Shown in pieces: positions 24,849-31,248 of a stretch of DNA of 64,000 nt. Origin of the DNA: an uncultured Anaerolineae bacterium (lineage in GTDB: Bacteria; Chloroflexota; Anaerolineae; Aggregatilineales; Phototrophicaceae); NCBI GenBank assembly GCA_937995825.1, contig CALKJO010000009.1, positions 62,001 to 126,000 of the forward strand. The letters run 5' to 3'. The notes beneath the pieces are model-generated. The model saw nothing but the letters and a program-made list of their open reading frames with translations, was not told the origin of the DNA and did not search any database. How positions within the stretch are numbered: the first letter of the stretch is position 1; each line of letters starts with the position of its first letter. A program made the translations under genes and the position numbers.

Positions 24849-24866
24849 ATGTGTAGATTTTCACAA
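24849..24866 (+). promoter_or_regulatory. Rex-like operator before rex
   Basis: ATGTGTAGATTTTCACAA matches the Rex-box form TTGTGAAATTTTTCACAA at 14 of 18 positions, with a perfect right half TTCACAA. It ends 42 bases before the rex start, a position typical of autoregulation. Confidence 0.6.
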
Positions 24867-24908: not shown

Positions 24909-25529
24909 ATGACCGCTTCGATACCCGATATTGTAATCAGCCGACTGCCCATTTATCTGCGCGCGCTCGAACGGCTCGCCCAGGATGGACATGAGGTAAC
25001 TTCCTCGCTAGAGCTGGGCAAGCATCTGGGAATCAGTTCGGCGCAAATTCGCAAGGACCTGTCTCACTTTGGCGGATTCGGAAAACAGGGGACGGGCTAC
25101 AAGATCAAATACCTAACCGAGCAGCTTCGGCAGGTATTGAAAGTCGAACAGGAGTGGGAGATCGCGCTAGTCGGCGCGGGCGATCTGGGAAGCGCTGTAG
25201 CGCGCTATCGGGGGTTTGCGCATCGGGGCTTCCGCGTTGCCTATGTGTTTGACAGCGCCGCCAGCAAAGCCGGCAAGCGGCTGGGCAATCTGGAAATTTA
25301 CCCGATGGAAAAGCTGCATGAGATCATTTCTGAGCGTCAGATCAAAGTCGCCATGATCGCTGTGCCAGCGGAAAGCGCGCAGCAGGTTGCCGACGCGCTG
25401 ATCGCGGCGGGCGTGCGCGCCATCTTAAACTACGCGCCGATCAACCTGAACGTACCTGCTCATGTGCGCGTTCAGTACATCGACCCAGTGATTCACCTTC
25501 AGCGCATGACCTATTACATCAGCGAGTGA
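24909..25529 (+). CDS. rex: Redox-sensing transcriptional repressor Rex
   Basis: This 206-residue protein senses the NADH/NAD+ ratio and represses respiratory and fermentative genes. The N-terminal winged helix holds the very conserved ISSAQIRKDLSHFGGFGKQG motif. A Rossmann domain begins VGAGDLGSAVA and continues with FDSAASKAGKRLGN. The C-terminal swapped helix contains IDPVIHLQRMTYYI. GGAG lies 14 bases before the ATG and AGAGG only 2 bases, so the start is set mainly by the family's usual beginning. Its own Rex-like box lies at 24849-24866, and a better one precedes atpA. The gene converges on mreB with no gap. Confidence 0.96.
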   Translation: MTASIPDIVISRLPIYLRALERLAQDGHEVTSSLELGKHLGISSAQIRKDLSHFGGFGKQGTGYKIKYLTEQLRQVLKVEQEWEIALVGAGDLGSAVARYRGFAHRGFRVAYVFDSAASKAGKRLGNLEIYPMEKLHEIISERQIKVAMIAVPAESAQQVADALIAAGVRAILNYAPINLNVPAHVRVQYIDPVIHLQRMTYYISE

Positions 25530-26537
25530 TCAGACGGCGGCGACACGCCGCAGAATCGCCGGATCATTGAGCGCCCGTCCTGCTCCAACTGCAACCGCAA
25601 TCATGGCATTGTCCGCGCGATAAACTGGCACGCCGGTCTCGCGGGTCAAAAACTGCTCGATCCCGCGCAGAAGCGCGCCGCCGCCAGTCAGCACAATACC
25701 GCGATCAATGATGTCGGACGCCAGCTCGGGCGGAGTGTTCGCAAGAACGCCTTTGACCACATCGGCGATCTCATGCAGCGGCTCATGCATCGCTTCGATC
25801 ACCTCGCCGGTTGTGATCGTGATCGTGCGTGGCAGCCCGCTGACATTGTCGCGTCCCTGCACTTCCATCGCCAGTTCCTGCCCAACAGGGTACGCCGCGC
25901 CGATCTGAATTTTGACCGACTCGGCAGTAGGCTGACCGATAGTCAGGTTGTATTTGCGGCGCACATAGGCTTGTATCGAGTCATCGAGACGCAGCCCGCC
26001 GATGCGACCGCTTTCACAGCGGACAATATTGTTCATCGTAAGCACCGCCGCCTCGGTGATTCCGCCGCCAATGTTGACGATCATATCGCCTGCAGGCGTC
26101 CCAACAGGCAGCCCCGCTCCAATCGCAGCGGCAAGCGGCTCCCAGATCAGAAAGGCTTCGCGCGCGCCCGCCTTGAGCGTCGCTTCATGGACAGCGCGCC
26201 TTTCGACACTGTTAGCGCCATAGGGAACCGAGATCATCACTGTCGGCTTGAAGAGACGAACGCGACCGGCGATCTTGTTGAAAAAATGGCTGAGCATCGC
26301 CTCGGTCACTTCGTAATCCGCGATCACGCCATTTTGCAGCGGACGGACGACCTGAATATCCTCATCGTCCACTTTGCCGAACATCTCGCGCGCTGGCTGC
26401 CCGATCTCGACGATGCGCTCATCCTCGACCGTCAGGGCAACCAGGGTCGGTTCCTGCAAGACGATCTGCTCGTTATCGTAAATCAAGACGTTGACCGTGC
26501 CGAGGTCAACGCCCAAGTTCTTACTGAACAGGCCCAT
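25530..26537 (-). CDS. mreB: Rod-shape determining protein MreB
   Basis: This 335-residue bacterial actin organises lateral wall synthesis. It begins GLFSKNLGVDLGTVNVLIYD (phosphate-1 loop LGVDLGT). It has IGGGITEAAVLTM as phosphate-2 and GIVLTGGGALLRGIEQF in the adenosine motif region. There is no mreC or mreD beside it. A stand-alone mreB of this type is common, and it could be an Mbl-like paralogue. A consensus -10 box precedes it. Confidence 0.94.
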   Translation of the reverse strand: MGLFSKNLGVDLGTVNVLIYDNEQIVLQEPTLVALTVEDERIVEIGQPAREMFGKVDDEDIQVVRPLQNGVIADYEVTEAMLSHFFNKIAGRVRLFKPTVMISVPYGANSVERRAVHEATLKAGAREAFLIWEPLAAAIGAGLPVGTPAGDMIVNIGGGITEAAVLTMNNIVRCESGRIGGLRLDDSIQAYVRRKYNLTIGQPTAESVKIQIGAAYPVGQELAMEVQGRDNVSGLPRTITITTGEVIEAMHEPLHEIADVVKGVLANTPPELASDIIDRGIVLTGGGALLRGIEQFLTRETGVPVYRADNAMIAVAVGAGRALNDPAILRRVAAV

Positions 26538-26663: not shown

Positions 26664-27128
26664 TTAGGCTTTTGCACCGCTGTTATTGTTGTCTTCGACG
26701 ATACGCAGGATAGACGATCCCCGTGCTTGGACTTTGCGCTGAATGCGCATCGCCAGTTCAGCGCGGCGCAGCGCCAGCGCCGCTTCGCGGTTATGCTCCG
26801 GCGGCACGCCCTCCCGTTTCATACGTTCGGCGCTGGCGCGGGCGGCTTCAATCGCTTCCATATCGATGGCATAGGACGACTCTGCCAGATCAGCCAGCAC
26901 GACAACCTTATCGGGGCGCACATCGACTACTCCGCCGTAGATGGCAAAGCTTTCCTCAGCGCGTCCCTTGCGAACGATCAGCTCGCCAAAGCCAAGCGTG
27001 GTCAGGACCGGCGCATGATGCGGCAGCACGCCCATCACGCCTTCCGAAGCCGGTATGACCACCATGTCGGCTTCTGGTTCGCTGAAGATGATCTGTTCCT
27101 GCGTGACAATTTCCACTGCGATTGACAT
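26664..27128 (-). CDS. atpC: F1F0 ATP synthase epsilon subunit
   Basis: This protein of about 154 residues forms the regulatory epsilon subunit of the F1 stalk. The N-terminal beta-sandwich is clear (VEIVTQEQIIFSEPEADMVV, GVMGVLPHHAPVLTTLGFGEL). A C-terminal helical hairpin is rich in Ala/Arg/Glu (EAIEAARASAERM, EAALALRRAELAMRIQRK). I used ATG 27128, preceded by AAGGGCG, rather than the GTG one codon earlier. Last gene of atpAGDC, followed by a terminator. Confidence 0.93.
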   Translation of the reverse strand: MSIAVEIVTQEQIIFSEPEADMVVIPASEGVMGVLPHHAPVLTTLGFGELIVRKGRAEESFAIYGGVVDVRPDKVVVLADLAESSYAIDMEAIEAARASAERMKREGVPPEHNREAALALRRAELAMRIQRKVQARGSSILRIVEDNNNSGAKA

Positions 27129-27145
27129 CACATTCGCCCTTCGCT

Positions 27146-29540
<2,395 letters not shown>

Positions 29541-29568: not shown

Positions 29569-31074
29569 TCAGCTCCAGCTCGCCTTGAAGTCTTCAATCG
29601 CCTGCTTGAGCTGCGCCTCGATATTTTCAGGCATGGTCTTTTCATTTTCGATGTAATCGGCGGCTTCGGCGTATTGGCTGTGATAGACTCGCAGGAATGC
29701 TGTCTGGAACTCGCGGATGCGATCCAGCGGCACGTCATCCAAATACCCACGCGTGCCGGCATACAGCAGCGCCACCTGGTCGGTCAGCGGCAGCGGCTGA
29801 TACTGCGGCTGCTTAAGCAGCTCGGTCAAGCGCAGACCGCGATCCAGCTGGCGCTGAGTGGCTTTGTCAAGGTCGGAGCCGAACTGCGCAAACGCCGCCA
29901 GCGAACGGAACTGCGCCAGGTCAAGACGAAGACCGCCCGCCACGCGCTTCATGGCTTTGGTCTGCGCGTCACCACCCACGCGGCTGACGCTGATGCCGAC
30001 ATTCATCGCTGGGCGCTGACCCGCATTGAAAAGCTCACTCTCAAGGAAAATCTGCCCATCGGTGATTGAAATGACATTGGTCGGGATATATGCCGACACG
30101 TCACCGAGCAGCGTCTCGATGATCGGCAGTGCCGTCAGACTGCCGCCGCCGCGCGCTTCGCTCAACTGCGCGGCGCGCTCCAGCAGACGGCTGTGCAGGT
30201 AGAACACGTCGCCAGGATAGGCTTCACGACCAGGCGGGCGGCGCAGCAGCAGCGACACCTGTCGATACGCCCAGGCGTGCTTGGAGAGATCATCATAGAC
30301 AACCAGCGCGTCCTTGCCATTTTCCATGAACCATTCGCCGATAGCGCAGCCGGCATAGGGCGCGATGTACTGAAGCGCCGCTGCCTCAGATGCTGTCGCG
30401 GCGACGATGGTGGTGTATTCCATCGCGCCGTATTCCTGCAGCAGTGCCTGAAGGCGCGCGATCTCACCGCGACGCTTGCCGACGGCGACGTAGATGCAGT
30501 AGAGGTCTTTACCTTTTTGATTGATGATCGTGTCGATAGCGATGGCGGTCTTGCCCGTCTGGCGGTCGCCGATGATGAGCTGACGCTGTCCACGTCCGAT
30601 GGGAGTCATCGCGTCGATGGCGACAATACCCGTCTGCACTGGGCGACTGACGTTCTTACGCTCCATCACGCCAGGGGCGATGCGCTCGATGTTGTAGAAT
30701 TCATCAGCGGCGATGGGTCCGCGTCCATCGACTGGCTCGCCAAGCGCGTTGACCACACGACCGACCAAGCCCATGCCGACCGGAACTGAGGCGATACGAC
30801 CGAGCGGGCGCACTTCGTCACCTTCGTTGATGGTGTCGTAGTCGCCCATAATGATGATACCGACGTTGTCCTTTTCCAGATTGAACGCAATGCCCGAAAC
30901 GCCGTTGCTGAAGCGCACCAGCTCGCTGAAGCGGATATTGTTCAATCCGCTGACGCGGGCAATCCCATCGCCAACTTCTTCGACATAGCCGACTTCAACG
31001 GCTTCGTAGGCAGGGGTGTAGTTCTTTACCTGCTGCAAGAGCGACTCAAACATGCCGCCGGTTACTTCCGCCAT
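29569..31074 (-). CDS. atpA: F1F0 ATP synthase alpha subunit
   Basis: This 501-residue non-catalytic nucleotide-binding subunit has P-loop [19 protein letters not shown], the signature [14 protein letters not shown] and a C-terminal helical domain. AGGAG lies 6 bases before the ATG. It is the first gene of its unit. Genes atpB, atpE, atpF and atpH, which normally precede it, are absent from the 440 bases upstream and from the rest of the window. The F0 and delta genes must therefore lie elsewhere. A strong promoter with a Rex box precedes it. Confidence 0.97.
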
Positions 31075-31209: not shown

Positions 31210-31237
31210 ATTGTACTGAGGCGCGCCCGCTTGTCAA
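31210..31237 (-). promoter_or_regulatory. Consensus promoter of atpAGDC
   Basis: On the minus strand a perfect -35 TTGACA (complement of 31232-31237) and -10 TACAAT (complement of 31210-31215) are separated by 16 bases. This is the best sigma-70-type promoter seen in the window, about 135 bases before atpA. Confidence 0.8.
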
Positions 31238-31248
31238 ATTTTTCACAA
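31231..31248 (-). promoter_or_regulatory. Rex operator overlapping the atp promoter
   Basis: TTGTCAAATTTTTCACAA matches the Rex-box form TTGTGAAATTTTTCACAA at 17 of 18 positions. It covers the whole -35 hexamer of the atp promoter. A Rex protein bound here would block RNA polymerase. The rex gene is 5.7 kb away in the same window. Confidence 0.8.

Follow-up and report, generated by a model that had tools for sequence, protein, structure and literature searches.

The window, i.e., the whole stretch of DNA analyzed here (64,000 nt; C9:62001-126000 of a 24-contig, 3.49-Mb genome), carries the genes of F1 ATP synthase; the F0 gene atpB is located on a different contig. The F1 genes follow a promoter on the (−) strand in the order atpA, atpG, atpD, atpC; after them come an MreB-like gene and a convergent rex gene (Table 1). 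An earlier note on this DNA had placed a Rex operator over the −35 hexamer of a TTGACA-16-TACAAT promoter driving atpAGDC, with rex itself in the window. We recovered each of these features: the 18-mer differs from the Rex-box form at a single position, its right half overlaps the TTGACA hexamer, the downstream genes match the NCBIfam models for atpA, atpG, atpD and atpC, and rex is present as described. The −35 and −10 hexamers together match 11 of the 12 consensus bases, and the promoter lies 135 nt from the atpA start at 31074. The order of atpC, the MreB-like gene and rex may represent a fixed neighborhood.

Table 1. Features of the F1 ATP synthase locus (positions are those of the window).
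Feature	Positions	Strand	Remarks
Predicted Rex operator TTGTGAAAAATTTGACAA	31231..31248	−	1 mismatch from TTGTGAAN4TTCACAA; TTGTCAAATTTTTCACAA on the (+) strand
−35 hexamer TTGACA	31232..31237	−	inside the right half of the predicted operator
−10 hexamer TACAAT	31210..31215	−	spacer of 16 from the −35 hexamer
atpA, F1 alpha	29569..31074	−	TIGR00962, 790 bits
atpG, F1 gamma	28584..29540	−	TIGR01146; start placed from the domain match (residue 75 of the longer ORF)
atpD, F1 beta	27146..28552	−	TIGR01039; start placed from the domain match (residue 45 of the longer ORF)
atpC, F1 epsilon	26664..27131	−	TIGR01216
MreB/Mbl-like gene, between atpC and rex	25530..26537	−	PF06723
rex, encoding a redox-sensing repressor; convergent with atpAGDC	24909..25529	+	NCBIfam Rex models, PF06971 + PF02629
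Predicted Rex box ATGTGTAGATTTTCACAA, upstream of rex	24849..24866	+	2 mismatches

The rex product matched nine NCBIfam Rex models, six of them over the curated cut-off, and combines a winged-helix N-terminal domain (PF06971) with a Rossmann NAD domain (PF02629); it contains the motifs IRKDLS and GAGDLG. A single PF06971 match in the window's genome corresponds to this cognate Rex. Its closest solved relative by sequence is Thermotoga maritima Rex (5zz5; phmmer E-value of 1.8e-47). In the T. maritima protein solved with NAD+ and operator (PMC8836258; PDB 7WB3), Arg48 and Lys49 contact the operator. The window's Rex retains both residues along with the glycine-rich wing; the wing residue Arg60 is replaced by Gln there and in all 31 sequences compared. 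Among the best 30 family loci and the window's, a 23-residue stretch of Rex is identical in 31 of 31.

Matches to TTGTGAAN4TTCACAA in the window were limited to a single one at ≤1 mismatch (0.01 expected) and four at ≤3 mismatches (1.27 expected; as many in 4 of 100 shuffles), one of the four being the box upstream of rex. Across the whole genome, we found 97 sites at ≤3 mismatches compared with 25 for the reversed control pattern, and four sites at 0–1 mismatch, which precede a DoxX-like gene, atpA, ccmE-ccmF and an aldehyde dehydrogenase (ALDH) operon. In the latter, the ALDH gene is followed by nuoB and a nuoCD fusion, with a short ORF resembling iscX (by eye) between ALDH and nuoB; the genes were checked with Pfam. 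A 2-mismatch site precedes a Rieske gene. Specifically, 7 of the 15 sites at ≤2 mismatches precede atpA, ccmE, ALDH-nuoB, Rieske, rex, DoxX-like or pyridine-nucleotide oxidoreductase genes, and no clear redox target was seen for the other 8. The targets of the seven are the kinds of gene that a Rex regulon should contain (cf. PMC5355995). The sole perfect Rex box in the genome scan (L312:605-622, on contig C10 of G000) is the one before the DoxX-like gene; it adjoins a stretch of short repeats that resembles a CRISPR array by eye.

Conservation of the element upstream of atpA

atpA was found in 97 of the 98 genomes of the family. For the conservation sample, 89 of the 98 genomes contributed 90 regions upstream of atpA, counting that of the window (G008, G010, G018, G034, G039, G044, G045, G085 and G087 were left out for want of a match or usable start). 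The best palindrome match in these regions had 1 mismatch in one region, 2 in 43, 3 in 40, 4 in three and 5 in three, so that the palindrome was present at ≤3 mismatches in 84 of 90, compared with 1 of 90 for the reversed control. Because 83 of the 90 best sites carried 2 or 3 mismatches, the palindrome alone was a poor measure for relatives, and the exact fused form of operator and −35 hexamer, TTGTGAAN4TNGACA, was counted as well. The earlier note had named a lack of conservation upstream of atpA in relatives as an outcome that would speak against it. The exact fused element was present in 80 of the 90 regions, spanning 19 of the 23 genera examined, and the reversed pattern in none. A chance resemblance in the window, in keeping with the 1 of 100 window shuffles that also gave a match at ≤1 mismatch, becomes a negligible explanation against retention in this many genera.

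Within the 80 fused elements, the spacer is 17 in 77 (16 in the window), the −10 hexamer is TACAAT in 56, and the right half reads TGGACA in 62, TAGACA in 17 and TTGACA in the window only. Since the letters of the element were fixed by selection in the exact-form count, only the unselected and flanking columns are informative: inside the element, A at position 8 occurs in 99% and G at position 13 in 87%, and flanks more than 2 bases upstream of the element are near-random (0.03–0.36 bit, genus-weighted). These columns bear on the idea that the locus holds only a strong, constitutively active promoter containing an A-rich stretch, its likeness to a Rex box being a by-product. In most atpA copies the right half indeed fits a −35 hexamer better than a Rex half-site; however, TTGTGAA, which sigma-70 does not need, is kept in those 80 regions amid near-random bases, and the palindrome changes symmetrically to TTGTGC...GCAC in two sets of loci (atpA in G001, G031 and G033; rex in L147 and L148), the behavior that a dimer site should show. 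We consider a purely constitutive promoter very unlikely.

The TGGACA that is near-constant in relatives is optimal neither as a −35 hexamer nor as a Rex half-site. The window's TTGACAA is a better fit to both consensus sequences, and its promoter is accordingly predicted to be stronger and under tighter regulation. Given the operator contacts described in PMC8836258, a TGGACA or TAGACA right half should weaken the binding of one Rex subunit; degenerate right halves need not abolish binding, since the authors of the Streptomyces avermitilis study suggest that Rex can bind a half-site at cydA1 (PMC5355995).

The exact element is missing from ten of the 90 regions; the window's genus accounts for five of these, having it in 9 of 14. 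The ten comprise one substitution (G057), a 2-nt deletion that breaks the half-site spacing and leaves the promoter (G063), a left half only (G043), loss of the left half at the −35 hexamer, with TTGTGGCAATTTTCACGA ending 27 nt upstream of it (G025 and G029), other imperfect palindromes with TTGTG or CAC cores (G001, G031, G032 and G033), and a region without a box in a genome without a rex match (G095). As a separate observation, G013 has two atpA copies (contigs C4 and C85); both have a rex linked to them and share the element TTGTGAAAAAGTGGACAG.

Linkage of rex and presence of the box

A convergent rex lies 5.9–9.9 kb from the atpA start in 68 of the 84 near-full-length atpA hits. Among the other 16, the contig breaks off no more than 6.4 kb from the atpA start in 13, G031 and G033 carry rex elsewhere in the genome, and G095 has none. 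The latter genome is 94% complete, with its atp cluster inside a 937-kb contig; it showed no PF06971 match, no box at atpA and no genome-wide site at 0–1 mismatch, and 61 sites at ≤3 mismatches compared with 39 for the control. At its atp cluster (L277), an MreB-like ORF again sits beside atpC, and the slot next to it (L277:419-1024) encodes a MarR/IclR-like regulator where rex would be expected.

Five genomes in which rex was not found (G028, G038, G046, G052 and G060; 180 to 1180 contigs each) have kept the box. Their atpA contigs end before the expected position of rex, and we therefore tentatively read the missing genes as assembly gaps. Boxes without rex would also suit an operator for another dimeric regulator, e.g., of the CRP/FNR family, whose site, TGTGA-N6-TCACA, has the same half-site letters and spacing as the Rex box. 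The window's genome has six CRP-type HTH matches, three of them over the curated cut-off, although this model is unspecific, with matches in all 14 control genomes, and the box-bearing G047 and the box-less G095 each have one match over the cut-off. Class II CRP activator sites lie near −41.5, whereas the element is centered at about −36.5 and covers the −35 hexamer. Furthermore, the element is common to the nuo operon and rex's own upstream box, and it is rex that is linked to the atp operon. Control by another dimeric regulator, such as one of the CRP/FNR type, is therefore unlikely in our view, and a Rex operator is the reading that we retain.

Outside the family, at least 27 genomes have the convergent rex arrangement, of 32 same-contig pairs listed, with 116 rex-bearing genomes in the class sample. 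In the class sample, we applied the box pattern to 60 of 150 genomes, picked by contig room and family (stretches of 332–1701 nt), with stretches upstream of atpB in 48 genomes and upstream of atpA in the 12 whose F1 genes lie apart (8 with rex, 4 without). A box at ≤3 mismatches was found upstream of atp in 10 of 40 genomes with rex (control, 2) vs 0 of 20 without (control, 3), a Fisher P of 0.023 with relatedness ignored; some of the 10 boxes are due to chance, as the control indicates. Absence of rex can itself be an assembly gap in this comparison, e.g., in G205, which like G207, G216 and G226 was counted among the 20 rex-less genomes for not being among the matches listed (eight negatives are unlisted). 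The other 30 of the 40 rex-bearing genomes showed no box at ≤3 mismatches in the fetched stretch. One class family (f37) has the sequence [AC]TGTGAAAATTTGC[GT]C[AG]A before the −10 hexamer (3–4 mismatches) in 4 of 4 genomes with rex and in 0 of 3 without. The 1-mismatch site of G156, at the distal end of the fetched stretch, may be that of a different gene, and G209, of the same order as the window's genome, has rex beside atp and no box at atpA. Promoters directly upstream of atpA outside the family proved uninformative where atpH-like ORFs precede atpA.

Other operons with the element

Over the 98 genomes, the fused pattern yielded 197 matches compared with 18 for the reversed control, and 23 selected loci were re-read in context. 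In 16 of them, from nine genera, TTGTGAAN4TTGACAA is fused to a promoter with a TATACT −10 hexamer (spacer 17, with 18 in one) before an ALDH/iscX-like/nuoB operon, at some loci directly before iscX-nuoB. Of these 16, 13 showed the NuoB signature; in the remaining three (L070, L076 and L283), the stretch was too short to reach its position. Two further loci (L279 and L290; one genus) precede a sigma-70-type gene, and no such promoter or target was seen at the other five. The predicted box also recurs upstream of rex: in 31 rex loci (the best-scoring 30 of the family plus the window's), a match at ≤4 mismatches lies within 70 nt of the chosen start in 23 (reversed control, 1), and at ≤3 mismatches in 13 (reversed control, 0).

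The F0 genes provide a further lead only. In the window's genus, a box-like sequence, TTGTGATARAAT..., precedes atpI in 11 of 14 loci (none was found in L299, and the start was not parsed in L297 and L308), and it may equally be an extended −10 element. On contig C16 of G000 (L275), atpB (PF00119) and atpI-, atpE- and atpF-like ORFs (assigned by eye) lie apart from F1, after a NuoN-like gene, with the box-like TTGTGATAAAATGCGCAA at L275:3290-3307 just before the atpI-like ORF.

Predicted redox control of ATP synthase

We read the 18-mer as a Rex operator that is part of the −35 region of the promoter for F1 ATP synthase and that would repress at low NADH (probability of about 0.85). This reading draws on the element itself and how well it is conserved, on its reappearance at nuo and rex, on rex being linked to the atp operon, and on the lack of the box in one rex-less relative. 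In this way, the cells probably tie the production of ATP synthase to their redox state. A Rex dimer, whether in the apo form or bound to NAD+, would cover the −35 hexamer, with its center at 31239.5, i.e., ~−36.5 from a predicted start at ~31203, and would block RNA polymerase as long as the NADH level is low compared with NAD+. With rising NADH, Rex would come off the DNA and atpAGDC could be transcribed, together with complex I and rex itself. We infer the binding, the NADH response, the start site and the direction of control, and take the release step from the Rex family as described in PMC5355995 and PMC8836258. The interpretation in the earlier note is supported to this extent: what it observed is confirmed, its reading is backed by conservation, recurrence and linkage, and control by the NADH/NAD+ ratio is a prediction.

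The earlier note had also pointed to Rex control of atp genes in Streptomyces, and this precedent is real. As reported in PMC5355995, S. avermitilis Rex acts at atpIBEFHAGDC, where the Rex box TTGTGATACGGTTCACGA lies in the atp promoter and the Rex-protected region, −50 to −22 at atpI, is said to encompass the −35 hexamer; nuo, cyd and rex-hem are repressed as well, with EMSA, ChIP and footprint data. The same source describes a fall in S. avermitilis atp expression under oxygen limitation with or without Rex, so that Rex is not the sole control of atp there. Both systems place a Rex box, a predicted one here, in an atp promoter over the −35 hexamer. They differ in arrangement: in S. avermitilis (PMC5355995) all atp genes form a single operon and rex belongs to a hem operon at another site, whereas in the window's genome F1 is apart from F0, rex lies near the F1 genes, and the predicted operator shares bases with the −35 hexamer in the form TTGTGAAN4TNGACA. 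Rex control of atp in Streptomyces is already published, and the present locus would be a further case with a conserved fused operator/−35 design. RegPrecise 3.0 lists a Chloroflexi collection of 5 genomes, and its Rex regulons are comparative-genomics regulons of the same kind as here (PMC3840689).

If the prediction is true, the supply of ATP synthase would be set directly by NADH in a Chloroflexota group known here mostly from metagenome-assembled genomes, and a rule shown in Streptomyces would hold in a phylum far removed from it. Together with the constant rex neighborhood, the fixed joining of operator and −35 hexamer at two respiratory operons would offer a simple model of redox-set oxidative phosphorylation. 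Our literature search, which covered few subscription journals and not the dedicated Rex survey, found no paper on Rex control of ATP synthase in Chloroflexota.

A wider joint reading, which we offer tentatively and hold to be rather doubtful as a whole, is that in this family a single repressor acts through sites fused to the −35 boxes of complex I and F1 ATP synthase alike, possibly also over the −10 hexamer of the F0 operon, so that the two ends of oxidative phosphorylation would switch together with NADH. The TGGACA at atpA would then be a deliberately weakened compromise between operator and promoter that gives a softer response than at complex I, rex would be inherited as a fixed neighbor of the ATP-synthase genes, and in one genus the fused element before a primary-type sigma factor gene would place global transcription under redox control. 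At the two loci of that genus (L279:223 in G061 and L290:278 in G066), a 1-mismatch Rex box is fused to the −35 hexamer before the sigma-70-type gene, whose product at L290 comprises Pfam regions 1.1 to 4. The 17-mer TTGTGAAAAACTTGACA of these loci was also matched in further genomes.
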